This document shows positions 4,266-39,394 of a stretch of DNA of 64,000 bases, piece by piece. Source of the stretch: Zopfochytrium polystomum (taxonomy: Eukaryota > Chytridiomycota > Chytridiomycetes > Chytridiales > Chytridiaceae); assembly GCA_025765615.1 (NCBI GenBank), contig JAIVFJ010000001.1, forward strand, positions 744,001 to 808,000. The letters run 5' to 3'. The number at the start of each line of letters is the position of its first letter. Positions within the stretch are counted from its first letter, which is position 1. Both the position numbers and the translations under genes were made by a program. Below the pieces are notes generated by a model that ran no database searches, had not been told where the DNA came from, and was given only the letters and a program-made list of their open reading frames with translations.

Positions 4266-6639
4266 ATGACAAAGGTGATAGCAGTTGTTTCACTGGTAGC
4301 AATCTTATGCGTAAGTCTGGTCAAGCGCAAATGGCAGGTGACGGCGATGAAGACACCTGAAGAGATTAGGGCGGGTAACTGGAGCCTTGATGACTGGGGC
4401 AAATTCGGTCCCTACAATGCAGAAGGCGAGTACATTGATCCTGAAACGGAGTGCGATGGGCAGCCCTGTCCGCCACTACTCCCACTGGGCGAGCCACACC
4501 CTTGGAAGCCCGGCCCACCATCTCCAACTTGCATACAAGTGACAGAGGAAATTCAGCATTGCAACTATCTACCGGAAGGCTATATAGATGTCACATATGA
4601 AGAGTTTCTTGCACTAGAAGCAGAATCTTTGACAGAAAACCACGACGAGGAAGAAAAAAAAAGTCTCAACCAACAACTCGACAGCCAGCCCATCCTTGAA
4701 GAGACGCTTAAGGAGGAGGTCCCAGTGGATGCTTGAAACATCCCCAGAAGAGAGGATATTGGTGATATGGTCCGGTGCCCCGATGACCTACACCATTGTT
4801 GCGGTAGATACTCTTCAAAACTCCATAGAGACAGCAGCCGATATAATATCATTAAGCATCGAAAGGTGGAGGACAGGATGCAATGAGCCAGAAGGAGGTT
4901 TCACTTCGAAAATCACTTATACAGAATCGGCCTCCTTAGCCTCGATATGGTTCAAACTACAAGACACAACTGTCTGTGGAGACCCGAGCGCGATTGCTTG
5001 TGCCTTTTTCCCAAGCGATTACAGTAGGACAACGAACACAGTGCTAATAAACTATCCGCGGCTGGTTGCCAGAACTCTAGAAAAATCTGTTGTGGCTATG
5101 TCACATGAGCTGGGGCATGTTTTGGGCCTAGCGCATAAGATAAACGCACAGGAGGCAGGGATCTGGTACGCTTCTGCTTACGACAGCTCCTCTATAATGC
5201 TACCATCGAGTCTAAGCCTCAGCGCTATAACAGAAAACGACTGCCTGGCAATTAAGTACTATAACGATGGATTTCCCGAGGTCAGGTGGTGCAAGGTTGT
5301 AAGATCAGGAATAGGTAGATGCTTCAATGCCAAGCTGGCATATGCACAACCCTCTCTCCAAAGTATTAGATTAAGAGGCAACCAAAGATCGACTGTGGTG
5401 GGACATGACGACTTGCTACTCGACTCCGACGAAATATCATGCACCGGGGCTGATTCATCACTCTATACGCTTATTGAGACCGACAATATCAATTTCCTCG
5501 AAGGCTATGTCTACCCGGATTTCAGTCTATATGAATGCCAGGGACTAACCACATCTTCAAGCAGCAACTATATCTATGTTATGCAAAGCGATGGTAACTT
5601 TGTATCATATGACCTAAGTACGGGAGCAGCTATCTGGTCAACTAATACAGGAGGGCAAGGAGATCAAGGATATAGCATTGTTTTTCAGACTGACGGTAAT
5701 GTAGTAACTTCCTCAAACTCTGGCGATATCATATGGAGCTCCGGGACTTATGGAACATCACCACTGACATTCGGACTTGGAGGTGAAAAGTTATACCTCC
5801 AATCTTCGGGCCACATGTCTATTGTGGGTGGTGGTGGAATCACTCTCTGGTCTTCAAGAGATGAAATTGTCTATCAAGACATACCGCTTCGAATGTCGAG
5901 GTACGGTTTATGTCTAGATGGTGCTGAGAACGTATCCGCTGGTTTGCCACAGCTCTATGCCTGTAACTCAACACCCGATCAAATGTGGAGTGTCACTACT
6001 CTTGGTGAAATAATAAGTACGCAGTCGGGCTTGTGTCTCATGGCATATCCAGATCCGCTGATTGGTGCACCACTAGTAATGCTTCTACCTTGTGACGGAG
6101 AGAGTGCCTCCCGTTGGAATTTCCTCTCCACCGGAGAAATATACAATCAGAGATTCAGATCATGCCTTGGGGCAACGCCGGATAATCCATCTTCCGGTTC
6201 TGAACTCAGAGTCTCTCCTTGTTCACAACAAGGTACTCAACTGTGGCTTAGAATCATTGCTAACTCTGGATCGATGATAAACTCAAATGGCATGGTACTA
6301 GACGGTGGAGCTGCTCAACAAGGCACTACTGTTCAATTGTGGGATTATAATGGCAGTATCGATCAACAATGGTCTTTCTATACGGATGGCTTGATATCGC
6401 ACAAGCAATCAGGCCTCTGCTTGACCGATTCTGAGCTAAATAGCGAAGTGTACGCGATACTTACGCTAGAGAGATGCACAACAACAGATAATCAGCGCTG
6501 GAGCGCTCAAGGGGGTACATTCGTTAACCATTGGAGTGGACGATGTCTTGACAACTACCAGTCGAACACCCAAGCTGGCAATCCTGTCGGAGCTTATCCA
6601 TGCAACAATGAGGATAGTCAACAATGGAGCTTCGAATAA
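4266..6639 (+). CDS. Secreted zincin metalloprotease with bulb-type and ricin-type lectin domains (frame break)
   Basis: The ATG at 4266 starts a hydrophobic signal or anchor segment (MTKVIAVVSLVAILCVSLV), followed by an acidic, Pro-rich, pro-region-like stretch that stops at 4736. The main frame is open from 4633 to 6639. It holds a zincin active site HELGHVLGLAHK (5104-5139), matching HExxHxxG/LG of matrixin-like proteases. Next come bulb-type lectin repeats (QSDGNFVSYD, QTDGNVVT) around 5580-5860, then six QxW repeats (for example QQWSFY, QRWSA, QQWSFE), enough for two ricin-type beta-trefoils. The two frames overlap at 4633-4736, where an A9 run (4654-4662) could explain a one-base shift; a short intron is possible. 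Likely role: a secreted protease that binds glycans. It sits entirely inside the insertion and ends about 390 nt before the right repeat. Confidence 0.65.
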
Positions 6640-23591: not shown

Positions 23592-24308
23592 CGGCGTTTT
23601 CAAAAGAGAGAGAGGGAGAGAGTGTGTGTGTGTGTGTGTGAGTGAGTGAGTGAGCGAGTGAGAGAAAGAGAGAGGGCCAACAAGAGAGGTGGGGGTGTCT
23701 GTCTTCTGTCGGGGGAGTGCCATCCATTCCTGCGCGGGAGCGTCGAAGGCGCGCGCGTGATCTGCGTGATCCGCCACGCCTCCCTGTCGTGTCGGAGGGG
23801 GGCTGAGTTTCTCCGCGGTTTGTCTTCGATAATGCGCAGTGTCTGTCTGCTTCCCTCCCTGTCTGTCAACCACGAAAATGTGGGGCTTGTGTGGCTGGCA
23901 TCCAATGCGGGTGTGGTGATGGTGATTGATGGTGATGAACGATGGTGATGATGGTGGATGGCGTCGGCGGTGATTGATGACGCTCTGTGCGAAACAAGCC
24001 CCGCACTGCCCCGAATATTGGCAAGGGCGTGTGTGAGACGGTAGTAACATGGAGGAAAGTTCGAGCAAGAAAGAAAGAGAGGAGGAGACAGAGACAGAGA
24101 CAGAGACAGAGACAGAGACAGAGAGAGAGAGCGAGAGTCATTGACCTTTGCAGACAGAGAGAGTTGCACGCACACACAGAAATCGGTTTCTTCTTTTTCT
24201 TTTTTTTTCTTCTCTTTCTCTTTCCCCCTTGTACATCTTGCCCCGTGCGAAAGAAGCGAAATAACAACACCACAAACACAGAACTACGCAGAAGCCGAAG
24301 TAGCGGGA
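23592..24308. promoter_or_regulatory. Divergent intergenic region with microsatellites
   Basis: The region separates the start codons of the unknown minus-strand gene and the plus-strand fusion gene, so it should hold both promoters. It contains (GT)n followed by (GAGT)n near 23620-23660, GA-rich tracts, a (GACAGA)n array around 24086-24130, and a long CT-rich tract at 24186-24230. The latter lies about 80-120 nt upstream of the fusion-gene ATG. No TATA box is obvious. The divergent promoter at 46306-46894 has the same kind of composition. Confidence 0.5.
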
Positions 24309-27300
24309 ATGGGCACGGACGTTTCGGGCCTGCCTGCTGGGTCGGCCGGGCTGAGCGTTACCCACAATCGACCTCTCGCATTCCTTGCCGCAAACGCGGA
24401 CTCCCTGCAAGGCGCTGCCGGCGCGTTCGCAGCAGTCCCCGCTGCCACGAACGCGACTCTGAACGCAACTACGCCGTCGGCGGCGCCCGCGACGGACTAC
24501 TACGCGTCCGTCCTCACCCAGACGCTGACATTTTACGACACGCAGCGCTCGGGCCGCCTGCCGTCCTCGATCCACCAGGCGTTCCCCATGATGATGGACT
24601 CTGCCCTCGACGACGGCAAGGACGTCGGGCTGGACCTCGTCGGCGGGTACTTTGACTCTGGCACGTCCGTTGTCAAGTACACGCTGCCGCTGGCGTTCTC
24701 GCTGACGACCCTCGCGTGGGGCGCGATCGAGTTCCCCGAGGGCTTTGCGGCCGCGAACCAGACTGCGCACTTGCTCGACACGGTCAAGTGGGGCACCGAC
24801 TACCTGATGAACTGCGTGCCAAACAGCACGGCGCTCGTTGTGCAGGTAACGTAACACATTTTGATCGCTTGCACCGTCGTTGCTCTGCGCGTCGCGCCGG
24901 AGAGCCAGCGAGCGAAACGCACGCCCCCCATCCTTGCTGCTCCTTGAAAAGCCCTTGCGTGCTTGGCTTGAGTGTTCTTGTTGCCTGACTTGTCCACCAG
25001 ACGGACAAGAGTGTTTGTTTCCGCCAGTCTCTTTCCCTCTCTGTCTCTGACCCACCCAACCCAACCAAACAGGTCGCATCAAAGGAGCGCGCGTCGGCAT
25101 GGAACAACCCCGCAAACATCGCCTCCTACAACCTGCGAGCCACTTTCACGGCCGGCACTCAGCTCCCCGCCTCCGACGCCGCCGGCGAGACCTCCGCCGC
25201 CTTGGCCGCCGCGTCAATTCTGTTCAGGACCGTCAACGAGACGTGTGCGTCTTAACCCTCTTTGTCCATCGAACTTTTCATCTGATCAGCCGCCCTCCCC
25301 CAACCCCCACCGATCGATCATTCTTCAGACTCGAATCAGTTGCTGGCGAAAGCGAAAACCGCGTTCGAGTACGCCGACACCTACCGCGGCCTCGCCTACA
25401 AGAACATACCTCCCGAGAACGGCGCGTTCGTTTACTCTCCGTGGGGCTACCTTGACGATCTTGCGTGGGGAGCGGCGTGGCTTCACAAGGCCACGAACGG
25501 TACGGGGTTGGGCACAAATGGCACGAGCTATGAGGCCATTGCCATGGATCGGCACATGGAGTGGTTGGCCGAGAAGGACAGTCACTTTTCGTGGATCCCG
25601 GATTACCGATTCAATTGGGACATGAAAGATAGAGGCGTGGATGTACTGATGGCAACCACCCTCTCGGATGGGATGAGCTCGTTATACGGTTCAAGGGTCA
25701 AGGGAATGTTCGCCAACATCTCATATCCCGGGGACGAGTACTCGTTCTTCTCCCAAGGTACCTCGCGTTTTCTCTTTAAAACGGTCACTTAATCATTCGT
25801 ACTCACTAATTATACCTGGATGCCTTTTATAGGTGGCCTCCTCATTCGCGACCTCGCTCTGCAGCAGGACTATGACTTCGTGTCGGCCCCAGATAGCATC
25901 AACGTTGCCTTTCTTGGCTATATTGTCAGCAAATACAATGCGAAGGCGAACTCCGACCTCGCCACCATCGCCTCGGAGTTTGCCACCGCTCAGTTGAACT
26001 ACGTGCTAGGCGATAACCCGTCAAATTTCACCTTTATCACGGGAATTGATTCAAGGTCGCCAATAAACCCTTGTAGCATGCTGATGCATGGTGGTATCAA
26101 CATCTCCTACCCGGTGAACAACAAGTATGTCCTACCCGGTGCTCTTGTCGGTAAGATTATAGAGATATCCCACTTCTCTAGACATTCGGTTCTAACTTTT
26201 CGTGATTTACTCAAAGGTGGTCCTACTGTTCGCGATAAGTATGTTGACACACGACTCAATCGACTGTACACCGAACCAAAGCTGATATGTAGGTGAACCC
26301 ATCGCTTTCAGCTTTTGAGTAATATTCTATATCTCTATTAGACAACGCTGCCCTCCCCGGCTTGCTAAGTCGACAGCTCACCGTACGCCAAAGTATTCCA
26401 CCAATGAAGGAGTGGATGGCTGCCAAAATCGAATCCCTCCGTCCATCACTCTCTGCGAGTTCAGGGGGTCAGTGCGGTGACGGCCGCTGTGAGCAGCGCT
26501 CTGAAACGTGCCACTCCTGCCCAATCGACTGTGGTGCCTGCGTCCCCATTCCTATAAATGATTGTGTCGTCAACGGCTCCCTGACCTTCACGTTTGACGA
26601 CGGTCCAACGAGTATCACACCGAGAATACTAGACATCCTGAAAGCATACAATGTTACGGCCACTTTCTTCGTCACTGCTCAGAATCTCGAGGACCCGACT
26701 TACGCAGGATATGTTCGTCGAGCAGCTCAGGAAGGGCACATTGTCGGTGCTCATACGTACTTCCACAAAGACATGACGACGCTGACGGACGAACAGCTGT
26801 TTGCGGATTTGACAATGGCACACATTGCCATTTCATCTGCAACCGGCGTCGCGCCCAAGCTGTTTCGATCGCCGTACGGAAACTACAACAAGCGCACCTT
26901 GGCTGTTGCGCAGGTCTGATCGCTTGAAATATCCTTGAAGAACTGACACTTAGTTTTTTGTTTTTTTTTTCAAACTTAAGGCGTTCGGGTACATTCCAAT
27001 TGCTTGGAGCTTTGATGCTCGTGACACAATGATGGTTTACAAATCGGCGGAAGATCCCGGCGCTTTGTTTAGTCGATTGCACCTTTTTGACGACAAGGAA
27101 AACACGCCCGGAATTATCTCATTGCACCATGACATTGCGCCAGCGAATGCCGACATCTTGGAACAAATGGTCCAGCAAGTTCCGTTGTGCGAATTCACCA
27201 TCATCGACATGCCAACTTGCCTGGGAACACCTGTTAGTCGATTCAACGACTGTAAGATTTTTGACAGAGCGGTACGCCTCGTGCTAAAACTCCCTGCATT

Positions 27301-30300
27301 GTGACATCGAGTAGTGCCCTCCATTCAAGTTTCAAGTTACTACGCCAAGGTTTCCTCCGAAAACGGGACTGGTCCACCGCTTCCGATCAATGTCGCCCAA
27401 AGCACTACTGGTGCCATCATCGTCAGCATTTCGTACTTTCAAATCATCTTCGGTGTTACTCTTGTCATGCAGTCTGTCATTGCTGTCCATCGAGCAAGCC
27501 GACATCGGGCCAAGCCTGCAAGAACGCGTGCCTTGAACACCATAATTTCAACCGGCATCGTTGTGTTGCAAGCATTTGTCCTCATCGTTTTCGCAAAGCC
27601 TTTCATCGACCTTGGCGCGTTCGCGCTCGATCCGGGCAGTCTGTGGGTGAACGTTGGTGACTCTTCCTTCCCTGGTGCTGCAGAACACGTTCTCGGCGCA
27701 GTAAATGCAACCGACGTAGCCGGTTCCGCGTTCAGGCTCACCTTGTTTTGGCGTATTCGAGCCATTCAACAGTCACTCTCTAATGTCGGTTACTACGGAT
27801 TCCTCGGCCTTTCAGTGCTCAACACCGTCATTGTGTTTGCTGAGTTTTGGATAGGGCTTGGCTACTGTCTATACTACGGCATCACGCCGTTCTGGAGGAA
27901 GAAGGTTGTGAAAGAGGAGCCGCCAGTGCCGGTGGCGACTCTGGCGCGAGGATCGGCCAAACGGAGGCGCGAAAAAGGGAAGTCAAACAACAGCGAACTC
28001 GTCGATGATCATCGTGGGATTGTCTGTACAGTTATTCCTGTCTACAACGAAGTGCCCGACGTGCTGCAGAGAACTGTCAAGAGTATTGTCAACCTGAAGT
28101 GGGCAACTTTGCTTTGTTCCTCCTCGTTCCTGGACTGACACAGTATTTCTTCTCCATTTTCTCAACCCAGGTACCCTAAACATCTGATGCACGTAATTGT
28201 TGCCTTTGACGATGATCGCGAAACAGACGAATATGAAGCGTTCTGCGGCATCATGTCCAAGCAGTCTCCGCCTTACTCGGATCGGCTGACTTGCCTTATT
28301 GAAGGTGTCAATGTGACAATCTGCCGGTTCCCCCACGGTGGAAAGCGCCACGCCCAAGGGCACGGCGCCTTGCTCGCTCGCGAGAAAGCTGAGGAAATTC
28401 GATGCCGGTTCGAAGGCTCTGCGGGCAGGGAGCTGGAGAAGTTCATTTTGTTCATGGACTCGGATATGAATGTGTTTGACGACGCGCTTGAAGCATTGAT
28501 GGTTGATATGAGCAAACGGAGGCAGTGCGAGGCCATGACGGGTTTGACCACAGTTCGAACAAAGGGAAGCAACATTTTGGAAATCATGCAAGCGACTGAG
28601 TGTGAGTAATACCGTCGTAGTTTCCGAATTGGCACGACTGACAATTGAATTGTGATTAGACCTTCGAATTCAAGTGCTTGAAAAAACCTTCCACGACTTC
28701 TTTGGCACTACCACGTGTCTTTCGGGCTGCCTCACGCTCGTTCGGATGGAAGCTCTCGACCGAGTTGCACCACTTTACTTTGATGGCGTTTCCGGCTACA
28801 ATCGCCGATCGTTCTTTAAGGATGCTTCCACGGTATCCGATGAGCCCATCGACAACTCCGTTCATGGCTTTTGGCGCATGCATCTTGGCGAGGACCGATG
28901 GCTCACGTTCCTCCTCGAAATGCACGGCAGCAGGTTCCCTGAAAACCGGCAGTCGACCCGCGGCTGCGGCAAAGGCGTCGTAGGATTTTGCCTGGGCGCA
29001 CGGGCTTCGACGGAGGTGCCTAACACTCTCAAGGTTCTCATTCAGCAAAGACGAAGGTGGATTCTTGGCATGCTCGCAAACGAAGTGCACAACCTCTCAA
29101 CGTCTGGACTGTGGCGCTGTCATCCGCTTGTGACCTTCCACCGTGCACTGTTAATGGCAGGGTTCGCTGGAGGAATGATTGACCTCCTCGTCGTTCTTAA
29201 CCTTTTGTTCTGGGGCGTTTCACTCGTGGCGAAGGTTAATCTGCTTATCCTCGTCACCCTCAACTGGTTTATCGTCGTCTGGGCAGCCCTTGGAACTCGC
29301 CAGGCGGAAGTGATACCATGGTTCCCGGTCTATTTCCTCGGCCAGCCCATCTTGAATGCATTCTATAACGTTCACGCTGTTTTCACGATGAAGCGCAAGA
29401 CTTGGGGCGGTCCTCGGTCTCTTATGGAATCAGAGCGTGCCCGTAAAAAGAATCAAACTCCAGCGAGGATTTGGGCTGCTCGCGTGAACCCCGAGTCTGT
29501 GGAAGAGGAGTTTGTGAGGCCCGTATGGAGTGTCCTCGCCTACAAAGCCACCCACCACCTGCTCGTCCTTTTACTGGTCGCTTACACATTCCAGCGCGGA
29601 GTGCTCATCGCATCGACCATATCAACAGTCGAAATCGGCCTTCAAATATGTGTTTTGTTTGTTGAGGTTATGATCCACTCAATGAACCTTGTGACGGGTA
29701 TCGCGAACTTGCCCATCCCAAAGCCTATTCGAGGTCCCGTTGTTGGCGAGTTTGAGTTCACTGACGAGACCGACGAAGGAATCGAGCGTCCGGGAGTTGC
29801 GGAGGAGGAAATCCCGACTACAACAGTGGAAGATATTGTGCAGCATTCGCCGGCATCTTCTGTCAGTAACTCGTCAGATCCCGACGCTGTGATAGCAGAA
29901 AGTCCGCAATCTAGGGGCAGCCCGTCGACTCCGGTTCCCTCGTACCCGTTTCCCTCACCGCGGCGCCTCGACCCCAACGTGCGCTCGTCTGTGGCCTCTG
30001 TTGCTGGCACTGAAATCACACTCTCGGAACCGCTTCGCGCTATCTGCGCTACGCACCCCAATCGTCGATATACTGTGGATGTTTTTGTTACGACGTACAA
30101 GGAACCGATCGAGACGCTCGAGGCAACCCTCGTAGCCTGTTGCGAGCTCCTAGTGCCGCCATTTGTCTCCCACGTTCAGATCAGCGTGCTCGACGACTCT
30201 CCGACGCCAGAAAAGGCCGCCCTCTGCGCCTCCTGGGGCGACGACCGGGTTGTCCGCCACATCACGCGCCCAAACAATCTGCACGCCAAGGCCGGCAATA

Positions 30301-31812
30301 TCAACAACGCCCTCGAAGTCACGAGCGGTGACCTTATCCTGGTGCTCGACTGCGACATGGTGCCGGTCCAGGAGGCCCTGGTGGTCCTTGCGGCAAACTT
30401 GCTCGACGATCCGACTGTCGGCTGGGTCCAGTCGCCTCAGCGTTACCGAGACGTCTTGGAGGGCGACCCGTTCTGCGTGCGCTCACAGATTTTTTACGAC
30501 CGCTTGCTGCCAAGCTTGGATGCCCGTGGGGCCGTTCCCTGCGTCGGAACAAACTTTATGAGTTGAGTGTCCAAATGGTTTCTTTCACGTTCCCCATCTT
30601 TGTGGCTAACAAAATGTTCCACCTTTAACCCCTCTTTCCGCCATTAAGTCAAACGAGAGGCCCTCCTGTCAATCGGCGGTATGCCAACAGACTCTGTCTG
30701 TGAAGACTACCTGATGGCTTTGGACCTGTTCCGATTGGGTTGGAAATCTCGGTATCTTCGACGAAACCTTGCGTTTGGAACAACACCTCAAACCGCTGAG
30801 GAAGTCCGCCGTCAGCAGACCCGCTGGCAAGTCGGAGGATTACAGGTCATCCGGGAGCGGTTCGGAGCGGGTGGAATGAAGGGATGGCGAGGTCAGTTTA
30901 GTTCCCTTCTTTGACGCGTATTGCTAACGCGTGTATGATTATCACTCACTTCCGCCTCAGCAATCACCTACCTTCTCACCTTCATCAACTATGCCGTGTA
31001 CCCGATTCTGCGACTTCTCGCCACATGCTTCCTCATTATTTACCTCTGGACAGATTTTAACCTGTTCTCAAACCGCATCCCAGTGACTGCCCTGTTCTAC
31101 TATCCCATCACCCTCCTCCAGTCGATTCTCTTGATTGTGTCCCCCCGCTTTGCGCTCTCGTGGAACATGTGGTGCGACTTGCAACGCGGCGGTTTCTTGC
31201 TGGCGAACCTGCTGGACGCGTTCATCACAAACGGGTTGACGTTTGCAAAGCAGCGCACGTTCAAGGCCACCGTGACGGGAGGAGCTAAAAAGAAGAAGAA
31301 GGCCGGCGTATGGCAGCATTGCTGGTTCCATGCGCTGCTTGCGGTCATCCTGCTGGGTGGATCTGCTTTCACCTGCTGGAGGGCGTCGAAGAACCACGGC
31401 TATGTCCCTAAAGAGTGAGTTCCCAGTGCGCAATCTGGGTAGAAACTAAAAAATTAACGCCCGAAATCTGTTTTTTTTTCTTGCACCCTTGCACTCGTGC
31501 AGCCCGGACCCGTTCGCCGTGTTCCCCGACCCGCCGCAATCCCCGCCCCGCCCGCTCGCCCTCGACATTGTGATTCTCAGCTACGCCCTGCAAGAAACCC
31601 TCGTGCTCATCCGCTACATCTACCACACCCTCTACCCGCCCGCACCGCTCCCGGCCGACGACCGCACCTACGCGTCCTCCGTCAAGTTCAAGAACTGCGT
31701 GGACGTCATCCTAGGAACCGTCGTCACCGCCGTCATGCTGGTCGCTGGAACTGTTGTGCCGTGGTTCCAGCCGGGCGTCGTGTTTGCCGATTTCTGGGTG
31801 CTACCGTCGTGA
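24309..31812 (+). CDS. GH9 - NodB deacetylase - chitin synthase - cellulose synthase-like fusion protein
   Basis: Thirteen exons: 24309-24845, 25073-25244, 25329-25757, 25833-26150, 26217-26288, 26342-26913, 26981-27251, 27315-28098, 28171-28601, 28660-30561, 30649-30891, 30961-31414 and 31503-31812. Together they are 6,495 nt, exactly 2,165 codons including the stop. Order: GH9 fold (residues about 60-530; GGYFDSG, LAWGAIEF, YVLGDNPSNFT, YNAALPG); Cys-rich CGDGRC..CPIDCG linker; CE4/NodB domain (TFDDGP at about 591, AHTYFH, RSPYG, D-A-R-D, SLHHD at about 744); three spans (about 823-980); chitin-synthase GT2 (VIPVYNE, MDSDMN at about 1147, CLSGC, GEDRW, QQRRRW at about 1323); about four spans; BcsA-like GT2 (VTTYKEP at about 1668, LDCDMVP at about 1757, CEDYLM, QQTRW at about 1885); C-terminal spans. 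The GH9-CE4 junction lies inside exon 6, and CE4 runs into the first spans without a stop. No classical signal peptide is seen at the chosen ATG. Confidence 0.8.
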
Positions 31813-34621: not shown

Positions 34622-37600
34622 CTAATCGCTGTGCCTTACAGCGAAAGGCATAGGGCGCGGTCCATGCAGGCGGCCGCCACCAACAACCGGAACTCCACCG
34701 CCACGGCCGGCTGTCGCCACACTTGGAACCACAGACTCCCCCGAAGACTTGACCGCCTTCCTGTCGACCAGCGTCATACTCACCACGACTTCGTCCTCCT
34801 CATCCACCGAGGCACCCAAGCTTTTGATGCCCTCACCAATGGCGCTCCCTTCACATGCAGCCGACAAGCTCGACGACACTTCCACTGCTTGCGCAAACTT
34901 GCCCTTGTCTTGCCCACGCGTGTTCACGGCTTTCATAGGAGCGGGTTTCGGTGCCGTCACCGGGTGGTTTCTCAAGTCGCCGTATTGCAAGTCGTCGACA
35001 CTGCTCACGGAGAGCTCCACTGGGATCGTTTCAGGCTCTGCTGCCCTTGCAGCCGCTCCGGCGCCGTAACCGACCGTCTCGACGGGAAAAGCCGATTCCA
35101 GAGGCGGTCGCGAAAACTTTACAAATGGCGGCGGTCGCGGACCCTTCAGATGGCCCGTGCGCGTCCCGCAAGCAGCCGAAGATGTAGCTTCAGGATTGAT
35201 GATAGCATCGCCCATAGCAGGAGCGGTTGCAATCTTTTCGCGGTGAGATTCTGTAGTCCTAGCTATACCGTTGTTTTCATTAACAAAGCCTTCAGGCCTT
35301 TTGGACGTTTGCGGATTCGCACTTCTTGCTCCTTCCTGCAGTCTTTTGCGACTGGCCTCGCCATTGACTGCGACAAGAAATCGAATGGGCTCGGAACCAT
35401 CCTCTGCGGCTGGCGTTGCAGGTGAATTGGGCAATATGGGCTGTGCGGTGGCGGGGAGTGTGACGGTTTTCACCGAAAAGGATGAAAGAGACGGAGCGAT
35501 GCTCCGCAAAAACCCGGAAACAGAGCTCATCGTCATCCAGGAATTGCCATGCGATGCTCCCTGCTCAACCGATGTTGTGGGTGCGCTTGGCTCGCGCCTC
35601 TCCACGGTTTGGGGCGAAGGAGTGGGGGCCGGTTCATAGATGGTAGCTGCCGAGGATGACATAGATCCCCTGCTTTGCCGGTTATGCCAATGTAGCTGCA
35701 TACGCCTCGCGACTATTCGTTCAGCCTCCCACTCTGACCAGCTGAAAACCAGCAGGGACGTTAGGGGTGATCCTCCTAGATGCGCTCTTCCCACTTGAAA
35801 AAAAATAATGGAAATCTCACCGCTTCATGGCCACAGTAACTGTGTTTCTAGCATCGTCTCCTGCCCCGTGGCCCTCCCGCCCACGGCCCTCTCCCTCGAC
35901 ACGACGCGTTTCTCCCCACGAGAAATCGTCAAAGTTCCAAAAAGCGTAAAGCGGCAATACAAAGTTCCACACAGGTATGGAAACAATATAGATAAGGAGC
36001 CAGAGGACATACACGTATCTGCGCGTTGTAAGAATAATTAAAAGTCCAGGGAGGCCCAGTGTTCCAATCATAAGATAAATAGGTAGCGTCGACACGGTTC
36101 CCGTAAATATAGGCATGAATAGTAGCACAAACAAAAACAAGAGCGCCGCCGGCAAAACAATCGTCCCGATGAGTTCCAGCTTTTGGGGGGCGGAGGGGTT
36201 GAGAGTAACGGTCAGCATAAAAGCGATGGAAACAGAACTCAAAGCATTTTCAATCGCACTTAACTGCAACGACAAACTGAACACTAAAACAAAACACGCC
36301 ACACAAGTCTCTCATCTGGACGAGCTCATACAGATTATGAACCGTCGAGTTGATCCATCTGCGCCTTTGCGACAGCAGCGTCTTGAAAGTGTCGGGGACG
36401 ACCGTCCGACAAACAGCTTGCGGTACAAACACAATCTTCCGTTTCGGAAAGGTGCGTAGCATCAGAGTCGTCAGGTAACGATCCTCGCCAAGCAGCAGCA
36501 GGTTCTTCTTGTGCAGTGTGTCGACAGAAGATTCGCCGTACTCTTCGACAATGTCCGGGTTGGCAAGAACCGGCACCGTCCACGCGCCGTGCGGACCCTT
36601 TGGCACCTTGACGCGGTACATGCAAAAGCAGCCCGGCAGGCACGTTACGGCGCCAAAGCTAGACTCAAATGCTTTCCCCAGATGGTGCGATATAAAGTAC
36701 TCAAACACTTGAATGGCCGTCACCCACGATGTCCGCTTGTTTGCGATGCGGGTTTCCCCGCACAGACCAATGATTCCAGCGTCATTCTTCATTGCTTGGA
36801 CCATAAACTGAAGAGACTCGGGTGCGATGCGCGTGTCAGCGTCGACCATGAGAACCAGCTCGTAGGCATCGGGGCGCACGGCACCACCACCCAAAACGGC
36901 GTGGATCTTTTTAGCAATTTCAAAGTCAAGCGGTGTCATTGCGTGGTCGAACAGGATTCGTGACATGAAGTTCATGAGAATCATCTGTGAGTCGCGTTTG
37001 CCGCGGTTTCCCGACTTTTTCTGGTGCGGCTCGGCTGCTTCTTCCGGCGTGCCGCATTTTACAACGGCGATCATAGGGACGCTACCGCCGCAGGTGTGAT
37101 GAAAATGGCCGACGAACTTGAGAGAAAAGTATTTTTGAGATGCAGTACACGCAAAAAAAAAATACCATTTTGAATCTTCGGTGAGCCTTACCACTTTCGC
37201 CATGTTGAGCTGGCGAGCACCATGACCAATCGAAACATAGCTCTTTGCTTCTATTGGGCCTTGACCGTCCAAGGGGTCCATCATACCAACTATTGCATCC
37301 GGAGTCGACGTCCTATTGCCGCTTCCAGTAATGTTTCCGTCGGCTACGACCCACAGAAGCTTTCTCGCGTCAGGATAATTTGAACTCGCCAGCGACTCGA
37401 GGGTGCCGCGGATTCCGTCCTCTCCTTCCGAATAGCAAGTGACAAATAAAATGACGTACGGGTCGTCCGCCGCTGCAGCCTCCCGCCTCCCAGTATCACC
37501 GATGGTAACGGTCGATTGGGCAATGATCTCTTCTGGATCTTCGTGGGCGCTGGCGCTCATCACAACGTCCAGGGGAACGGCAAACTGCGGAGTCGATTTT

Positions 37601-39394
37601 GGAGTGTAGCGGTGGGAGTTTCCAGTGAAGGTCGACAGTCCGTAAAACCCATGAACCCTCCTCGCACTTCGGTCGATAACTAGCCGCCGTGAGTAAAGCC
37701 AGTGAAACGCCATCGCCGAAAAGAGCTTCGCACCGAGCAAGGATAGAATGACGGACAGCGTGAAGGACTGGATAACGCTAACACCAACGCATCCCATGGG
37801 TTCTTGGTCAATATCACCGACAACCGAAAGCTGGGACAAGCACATTGCGAGGTTAGATGCTTCGCTGGTCGTGGAGAGCAGCCTTGTGCCATCTCGACCG
37901 ATGCTGCGGAGAAGAAGTTGCCTTGTACTATAGGTGAAAAGGATGACTGATCCGTCCGTTCCCAAAGCAGTAATGTTCAGCACAAGACCGTTGTAGACGG
38001 TCAGAGTGTGTGGTGGCCCCACGTTTACGCCGACATCTGTCCACGTGAAAAATCCCTGGCCCTTCGGTGATAGAGAAGACAGAATGTCAGACGACGGGCA
38101 AGGGCTCCCCGCAGATGGTGCGAGTGGTGGGGACCCGGGAATTCTATTCGGAAGCGAGCATCGAGCGCTGGTTATTCCCCGAAAAGATGCGCATAAATCC
38201 ACGGGAGGCTGAAACAGCGCGGTCAAATCCGCCCCAAACCAATCAATCGTCAAATTGATCCCCGCTTTCTCCAAAAGCAAGTCGCGAAGGGCCGTGAAGT
38301 CGTAAATTTTCCCAGAAATGATCACATCATCACGGTAATTCACGGACCGATGGTCGTTCTGATCGAGAATGGCGTCGCGAAAATCGGTTGAGCTGCTCCT
38401 GGGGCACATTGTTTCTTCGAGCCCAAACGTTAGGAACCCAAGTGCGGCCATGCAAATCATGATGAGGAAGGCACAGTGTAACCTATAGTCGGCGAGTCGG
38501 GCAGCGCTCAGTTTGCGAAGATGGGATTAAATGAAGCACAACACCTTTTCGCGCCACGCTTGCCGAACTGCCGCGTTCTTCTTTCCAACAGCTTGCCAAG
38601 CAACAGTCGCAAACACAACACGTTGCAAAGCGGACCGCAAGCTTCCACCAGTCGATCGGCGCTGCTACTGGGTCTTTGGGAGTAAACGCTGCACCAAAGC
38701 GATGTCTGTAAGTCGTCGCACCTGGTTGATTTTGTCCAATACACGTGGGACCAAGATCAGCAATAGATTAAAAGCAAGCGTCTCTCGATCCACCCACCTG
38801 TTCTTGCGAGCTGAGGAGTGGTGGCGCGCTTGTGAGACGGTTCCACCGCTTCTGTCAGACCTGAAGGACGCCTCATGTCGACTTGCCAGGCTCCCGCCTA
38901 CCCTCCGGACGGACCGCCGCACCGAGGACGCGACCGCACGCGGGAGCTGCAGCGCTTCTCGAATCTCCTGGATGAATCCTTCAGGCGGGTTCGTGGGATA
39001 CCGTGTGAGCGGTTCTCCTATTTGCCCTGGATCCTCGACAATTTCCTGGTTTGCGACCACATCGTCGGATCCGTCGACGACGCGAAGTTCAGCGCGGGGA
39101 CTCTGGCAGCTCTGGGGCGTCAGTGTGGGGGGTCGGCGGGCGGTTGGTCGCCGTCGCATCGCCAAAGAAGATCCTGGTTCGCGGGCCGACAATCGCGCTG
39201 CTTGCGGCGTTGGTCGCGAGGTCCGGTCGTTGGGATGAGAACGAGGGGCCTGCTGCCTGAGAGGAAGAGTAGCCAGATGCGCTATTGCTCGATGGAAATG
39301 GAATCGGGTTTGCGGGCGCCGGTGCAGCGATGACGCGTGGGAGGGGCGCCTGGCGGATCTGGCGGGGCCACGTTGTCAAGTCGGCCATGCCCAA
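34622..39394 (-). CDS. Division II chitin synthase (class IV/V-like)
   Basis: The reliable exons are 37192-38482, 36265-37116, 35821-36179 and 34622-35741. The exon before them ends at 38543 and encodes VRQAWREKV, a chitin-synthase landmark. Further N-terminal exons lie up to about 39394 (open frame with [21 protein letters not shown]), with boundaries I could not fix. Catalytic signatures are present: [53 protein letters not shown] and [15 protein letters not shown]. These are followed by [27 protein letters not shown] spanning an intron, and [13 protein letters not shown] b5-like segment precedes the catalytic part ([16 protein letters not shown]). No myosin motor is seen. The last exon adds a low-complexity, Ser/Pro/Thr-rich tail of about 370 residues. 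The enzyme polymerises GlcNAc at the plasma membrane. Confidence 0.85.

Follow-up and report, generated by a model that had tools for sequence, protein, structure and literature searches.

Does a single polypeptide of the chytrid Zopfochytrium polystomum (order Chytridiales) join a cellulase-type fold, a chitin deacetylase, a chitin synthase and a cellulose-synthase-like enzyme, and if so, what could such a chain make? The question is raised by a gene, referred to here as the fused gene, at 24309-31812 (+) of the window, a stretch of 64,000 nucleotides (C1:744001-808000) in an 80-Mb assembly of 761 contigs. Built by hand from the reading frames, the gene has 13 exons and 12 GT-AG introns and predicts 2,164 residues and a stop, with the order GH9, NodB/CE4, chitin-synthase-like GT2 (GT2a) and BcsA-like GT2 (GT2b) along the chain. 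One transcript and one chain would be expected in the cell. The reading favored here, to which we give about even chances, is that of one 2,164-residue membrane protein serving as a two-product wall machine, which would make chitosan through GT2a and NodB, and beta-1,4-glucan through GT2b, guided by the GH9-like domain. In the features of the gene given below, C214, C378 and C17 are contigs with paralogous loci, and JEL0842 and Podochytrium are other chytrids with related proteins.

24309-24845, 25073-25244, 25329-25757, 25833-26150, 26217-26288, 26342-26913, 26981-27251, + strand: exons 1-7 of the whole gene
27315-28098, 28171-28601, 28660-30561, 30649-30891, 30961-31414, 31503-31812, + strand: exons 8-13 of the whole gene
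24501..26367, + strand: GH9-like domain, exons 1-6 (PF00759; alignment to Thermobifida fusca E4, 1js4; residue table)
26473..26541, + strand: Cys-rich module CGDGRCEQRSETCHSCPIDCGAC, conserved in the C214, C378 and JEL0842 copies and in C17 DNA
26578..27190, + strand: NodB/CE4 deacetylase domain with five motifs, exons 6-7 (PF01522; solved-chain matches; residue table)
27413..27853, + strand: three predicted spans, residues 824-842, 866-884 and 952-970 (hydrophobicity scan)
28016..29123, + strand: GT2a with DDD, DSD, GEDRWLT and QQRRRW, exons 8-10 (PF03142; residue table; tree)
29169..29702, + strand: hydrophobic helices 3' of GT2a with a WGGPR loop between them (two spans by the scan; a low-confidence model has five long helices)
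30078..31049, + strand: GT2b with DD, DCD, CED and QQTRW, exons 10-12 (TIGR03030, 184 bits; best solved chains 5ej1 and 4hg6)
31251..31283, + strand: FKATVT stretch, positioned like the BcsA gating loop (F[KQ]AT[VI] in five of six rows; the C378 copy ends earlier)
31284..31809, + strand: C-terminal membrane helices (hydrophobicity scan; P0022, a Podochytrium relative, aligns onto BcsA 249-705)

The gene model reproduces the 13 exons, canonical junctions and 2,165 codons (stop included) of the initial annotation, with all 12 introns GT-AG. The exon-8 acceptor at 27315 fits the paralogues and the deposited protein P0001 ('NDLPSIQ'); acceptors at 27312 (2,166 codons) and 27330 (2,160 codons) also leave open frames and were rejected on the paralogues. 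An in-frame stop at 24045 lies upstream of the start. Just 5' of the start codon, positions 24080-24240 hold purine-rich simple repeats and a long polypyrimidine tract, and the 5' untranslated region may contain an intron there.

Pfam matches on this single open spliced frame confirm the proposed GH9-NodB-GT2-GT2 order. The search used a 2,159-residue version of the chain, in which positions beyond residue 790 are five lower than in the final model. GH9 (PF00759) covers residues 65-518 at 322 bits, with positions 1-444 of the 444-position profile matched, and is followed by Polysacc_deac_1 (PF01522; residues 589-704, 119 bits), Chitin_synth_2 (PF03142; 1138-1455, 99.8 bits against a cut-off of 27), and the overlapping matches Cellulose_synt (1728-1831, 39.6 bits) and Glyco_trans_2_3 (1750-1935, 115.8 bits). 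The frame runs from NodB through the spans into GT2a without a stop, as had been claimed, and two exons each hold parts of two domains. GH9 and NodB meet in exon 6, though the share of GH9 there is its last few residues and that of NodB its first part, and the 1.9-kb exon said to hold both GT2 domains is exon 10 (1,902 nt), with the end of GT2a and the first part of GT2b.

The same arrangement recurs elsewhere in the genome. A search of this genome for the NodB family gave 40 matches, and four loci match over the same extent, namely the window (C1), C214, C378 and C17. When pieces of the chain were searched with tblastn, C214 and C17 gave the order GH9, NodB, spans, GT2a, spans, linker, GT2b and C-terminal spans, and C378 gave the same order up to part of GT2a, where its contig ends; the first 62 residues of the window chain had no match at these three loci. 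All 12 junctions of the fused gene recur at the same place and phase in C214 and in C17, and in C378 so do all 8 that lie before the contig end. The spliced C214 copy is a clean open frame of 2,187 residues, and the C378 copy is open for 1,212 residues up to the contig end. Because the paralogues keep the junctions of the window at the same place and phase, chance or mis-joining is a very unlikely source of the fused frame. Three contig pairs of the assembly (C47/C144, C7/C343 and C58/C256) share the same chitin-synthase match scores, which points to duplicates that the assembly left uncollapsed. The fused loci on C1, C214 and C378 are not duplicates of this kind, because their silent sites differ too much.

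The folded domains of the chain, and the joints between them, are under strong purifying selection. Between C1 and C214, the folded domains are 80-92% identical in amino acids and the silent sites are near or beyond saturation; the ratio of nonsynonymous to synonymous rates (dN/dS) is lowest at the NodB-span joint (0.036), followed by GT2b (0.042), GH9 (0.049) and the C-terminal spans (0.064), with the synonymous rate (dS) not computable for NodB, the first spans and GT2a. In the closer pair C214-C378 (dS of about 0.5), the values rise from 0.028 at the joint through 0.034 in GH9, 0.043 in NodB and 0.053 in GT2a to 0.067 in the spans. Other parts are looser, including the N-terminus (0.32 in C1-C214 and 0.64 in C214-C378), the linker between the two GT2 domains (0.20) and the Cys linker (0.10 in C214-C378). 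For the C17 copy, 38 codons before a frame break were used, giving 0.10-0.14 where computable, and these values are excluded from the quoted range. Since dN/dS is low in domains and joints alike, selection acts across the joints of the chain and not on separate islands.

The order is also present in single deposited proteins of two other chytrids, as the initial annotation had suggested might be checked, and thus at four loci in one genome and in three chytrids overall. The whole-chain search covered about 5.8 billion proteins, of which 7,987 candidates were scored and 21 were hits; a search with the spans and GT2a (7,996 candidates scored) matched P0095 and P0001 alone. These searches score the candidates that share the most words, and distant relatives may be missed. 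P0002 (Chytridiales sp. JEL 0842, 1,968 residues, named Endoglucanase) and P0003 (Podochytrium sp. JEL0797, 2,845 residues) each carry GH9, NodB, Chitin_synth_2 and GT2/Cellulose_synt in order. Residues 133-551 of P0003 hold an N-terminal homeodomain followed by a GH17 domain behind a membrane span. Because of the homeodomain, this start is probably a merged gene model, and the GH17 domain may be a real addition. GH17 as a lost part of the family was considered and rejected, with no match beyond chance in the window or the three paralogue loci.

What each domain could do was judged from its catalytic residues. The GH9-like domain was aligned with T. fusca E4, in which we take Asp58 of the DAGD site (residues 55-58) to be the catalytic base and Glu424 the catalytic acid. 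This site reads DSGT in C1, C214, C378 and the DNA of C17, DSGS in the JEL0842 protein, and DTAA in the Podochytrium protein. The first Asp is thus retained, and the base position is T, S or A in all five readable rows and in C17 DNA. The Glu aligned with the catalytic acid is kept in all five rows that cover it and in C17 DNA, and the His-x-Arg site is lost in every readable copy. GH9 signature patterns fail in all six rows, including P0001, which has no GH9, and were not used as evidence. The GH9 fold of the initial annotation stands on its full-profile match, but the domain is probably not an ordinary hydrolase, since every copy read has T, S or A in place of the catalytic base. A six-frame search of the genome placed 12 of 12 GH9 matches inside the four fused loci (10 candidates, all scored) and detected none elsewhere in this genome. 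A GH9 domain that by its sequence lacks the catalytic base, yet is under strong selection, appears to be new here.

In NodB and both GT2 domains, by contrast with GH9, the catalytic motifs are intact in the residue table and in C17 DNA. The closest solved chains to NodB are 7bly (Aspergillus niger) and 2y8u (named chitin deacetylase). All five CE4 motifs, which we take to be TFDDG, H-x3-H, RxPY, the D at motif 4 and LxHD, are present in C1, C214, C378 and C17 DNA; the JEL0842 and Podochytrium models each lack some of them where sequence was skipped. In GT2a, the DSD, GEDRWLT and QRRRW motifs are kept in each copy that reaches them, and WGGPR is retained in all five rows reaching it. By sequence, GT2a is a divergent match to Chitin_synth_2, and chitin would be its product. 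About 4 kb downstream of the fused gene and convergent with it, an ordinary division 2-type chitin synthase gene lies at 35817-38526 (-), with a PF03142 match of 571 bits in its main exon and a 758-residue open frame.

The second GT2 domain was originally described as cellulose-synthase-like, and this holds and can be specified. Sequence, tree and the fold of a relative make GT2b, by these comparisons, a domain of bacterial BcsA type. DD, DCD, CED and QQTRW are retained in all five copies reaching them. In the fold comparison, P0022, a relative from Podochytrium, aligns onto BcsA 249-705, the six best entries are all BcsA, and the BcsA fold with its channel helices is found. The FKATVT stretch was compared with the BcsA gating loop, which we take to read FxVTxK. 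The product of GT2b would be beta-1,4-glucan. Elsewhere in the genome, a separate, intron-split GT2 gene (L037, C9:426500-432500) is cellulose-synthase-like; it presumably resembles the fungal Tft1 type.

Put together, these parts suggest the following mechanism. GT2a would take in cytosolic uridine diphosphate N-acetylglucosamine (UDP-GlcNAc) and push chitin through its own channel, and the tethered NodB domain would remove acetyl groups from the emerging chain, so that chitosan would form where the polymer is made. In the same way, GT2b would extrude beta-1,4-glucan, and the GH9-like domain, without its usual base, would bind and order this glucan as a non-hydrolytic guide, a role modelled on KORRIGAN. 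A bolder version, put forward tentatively and with less confidence, would make this the first known two-polymer synthase, with chitosan and a cellulose-like glucan co-spun via two adjacent channels. It would have arisen from a fungal synthase and deacetylase together with a cellulose synthase captured from bacteria, and from a cellulase turned into a non-cutting guide.

Such a machine would have GH9 and NodB outside the cell and both GT2 domains inside. The outside position is proposed because of the predicted spans, their charge bias and the sequons. The three spans that the initial annotation placed between NodB and GT2a are predicted here as well, with a clear charge bias around the first two: 4-5 Lys/Arg stand behind span 1 and ahead of span 2, the pattern that an inside loop would show. 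The scan covered the window copy, C214, P0001, P0002 and P0003, and the starts of C378 and C17 were judged by eye. The N-terminal 815 residues carry 13 sequons versus 5.8 in shuffles (P 0.002), compared with 3 versus 1.5 in GT2a (P 0.19) and 1 versus 1.4 in the linker and GT2b; C214 has 10, 1 and 2 in like regions (counted without shuffles). After GT2a, the scan gives only two spans for the window copy, compared with three for C214. By an analogy with BcsA that we assume to apply, four spans and one interface helix at this point would leave GT2b inside.

Several observations weigh against the favored reading. For topology, spans 1 and 3 of the window copy score weakly (0.63 and 1.10), and span 3 is without charge bias (2 Lys/Arg in the 15 residues ahead of it and 1 in the 15 behind). 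The predicted structure of the 989-residue P0095, the double-GT2 part, shows five long helices after GT2a; its mean predicted local distance difference test score (pLDDT) is 44.7, so the model cannot settle topology. No signal peptide or N-terminal anchor was seen in the span scan or the upstream search, in which no dedicated signal-peptide program was used. There is no span before residue 824 in the window copy, and C214 has a weak stretch at 14-32 alone; no conserved upstream exon that could hide a signal peptide was detected at the four loci, where similarities were weak or simple-repeat in nature, and the five upstream hydrophobic frames, at three of the four, are unconserved. Moving some 820 residues across the membrane would therefore depend on the first internal span. 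These points would suit a cytosolic GH9-like and NodB region, with NodB acting on intracellular GlcNAc substrates. We regard that arrangement as improbable, given that span 1 is strong in the Podochytrium protein (-2.67), that the Lys/Arg pattern and the sequon excess argue for an outside N-terminal region, and that a conserved Cys-rich module sits between GH9 and NodB. The suspicion that adjacent GH9/deacetylase, chitin synthase and cellulose-synthase-like genes were joined by read-through draws on the deposited models, two of which are fragments: P0095 for the window gene and P0001 (1,460 residues) for the C17 copy. We give such an artefact very little credence. P0095 cuts through two domains, starting within span 1 and ending within GT2b because the exon-10 donor was read through, and P0001 is continuous from mid-NodB through both GT2 domains. 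In addition, paralogues near or beyond silent-site saturation keep order and junctions, and a single deposited protein shows the order in each of two other chytrids. The state of some copies also counts against the favored reading. In the C17 copy (L011, C17:268000-277900), the reading frame is broken by one base at three places, all of them in exons 3 and 4 within GH9, and its other exons are open; the breaks may be assembly errors or decay. Part of NodB and the first span are missing from P0002, and the Cys module and the first NodB motif from P0003, gaps that probably reflect exons skipped in the deposited models.

The products are the other point of contention. GT2a stands far from the solved chitin synthases (24.6 bits), and the Podochytrium copy has DDE in place of DDD. 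In a GT2 tree of 60 rows, which drew on the top 47 of 73 hits (P0022 left out), P0091, P0094 and P0004-P0006, and from which P0041, P0063 and P0066 were dropped as having no QxxRW match, GT2a joins the one ordinary synthase included (one exon) at 97/91, on long branches of 3.35 and 2.79. GT2b falls under the CelA equivalog cut-off (TIGR03030, 184.1 versus 699.1 bits) and is not filed as CelA; PilZ (PF07238) has no match on the chain at E 0.001, and the third GT2b motif is CED versus what we take to be TED in BcsA. The GT2b features would fit a chain that makes one polymer, in which the two GT2 domains work on a common product (chitin/chitosan or mixed), or GT2b acts as a regulatory or channel-forming partner, and no separate glucan is made. 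This is the strongest competitor, though an unlikely one in our view, as GT2b keeps its motifs and a gating-loop-like stretch in five of six copies (those reaching them), has a dN/dS of 0.042 in C1-C214, and finds BcsA in all six best entries by fold. The guide role also has its difficulty, since the hydrolase activity of plant KORRIGAN is needed, according to PMC9099982, while this GH9 has lost its base. In a further reading, the chain is as described but its GH9-like domain is still a hydrolase through another base, and the retained acid Glu, the first Asp of the DAGD site and the strong selection speak for it. The replacement of the base Asp by T, S or A and the loss of the His-x-Arg site in all readable copies leave it a slim chance.

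The favored two-product reading, if true, would matter because cell walls are usually seen as the work of separate synthases and separate editing enzymes. A chitin synthase, a deacetylase and a bacterial-type cellulose synthase would be fixed at 1:1:1, and the coupling of synthesis to deacetylation would become directly testable. It would also give a genetic handle on how zoosporic fungi lay down a composite chitosan-glucan wall, and would present a cellulase domain under strong selection despite the loss of its catalytic base. Two of the four copies are represented by fragmentary deposited models, and one relative bears the sole name 'Endoglucanase', so tallies of wall genes and of cellulases in such chytrids would be affected. 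Away from the fused gene, a long open frame at 4633-6639 (+) shows, by eye, a zinc-peptidase-like HExxHxxGxxH stretch and ricin-type lectin-like repeats.

How does the fused chain compare with known systems? A literature search, with subscription journals and preprints outside its scope, found no published report of the GH9-NodB-GT2-GT2 order, in line with the original statement that no described protein was known to have it. Bacterial GH18-CE4-GT2 proteins are known, and P0006, a GH18-CE4-GT2 protein, is the nearest architecture found, having a hydrolase fold (GH18, 149-467), NodB (568-674) and GT2 (855-1139) in one chain and in the same order; P0091 and P0094 are similar in listing NodB and GT2 families together. 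Unlike the fused chain, these three have GH18 or no hydrolase and no second GT2 was seen in them, and their GT2 domains branch apart from GT2a. The NodB domain may or may not stem from such CE4-GT2 proteins, an origin that a 10-row tree neither favored nor opposed; two of the four deacetylase loci tried from this genome were left out of that tree for want of a usable row.

The fungal division 2 chitin synthases resemble GT2a in their PF03142 match and their EDR and QRRRW motifs, although GT2a scores 99.8 bits, against 571 for the main exon of the neighboring ordinary synthase. The extra domains reported for fungal chitin synthases are cytochrome b5, myosin and DEK_C (PMC5122149, PMC8778642), and GH9, NodB or a second GT2 are not among these reported extras. 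PF03142 also matches non-chitin synthases (PMC5122149). Chlorovirus-like (CV) fungal chitin synthases are described with a colocated polysaccharide deacetylase gene, but as separate genes, with no fusion described there (PMC5122149). Fungal GH9 is described as mostly single-domain, with one GH9-transposase oddity (PMC5428031).

Bacterial BcsA is like GT2b in sequence and motifs, in the fold predicted for a close relative of the domain's family, and in having a gating loop where GT2b has a similar stretch; GT2b differs in lacking a PilZ match, in standing behind a chitin-synthase-like domain and in falling under the CelA cut-off. Plant KORRIGAN (GH9A), a membrane GH9, is reported to associate with the plant cellulose synthase complex and so also offers a GH9 domain beside a beta-1,4-glucan synthase (PMC9099982). 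The fused chain differs from it in being one chain, with no N-terminal anchor seen and no catalytic base. Ultimately, the protein brings known parts into a new order, and possibly represents a new kind of two-product machine.

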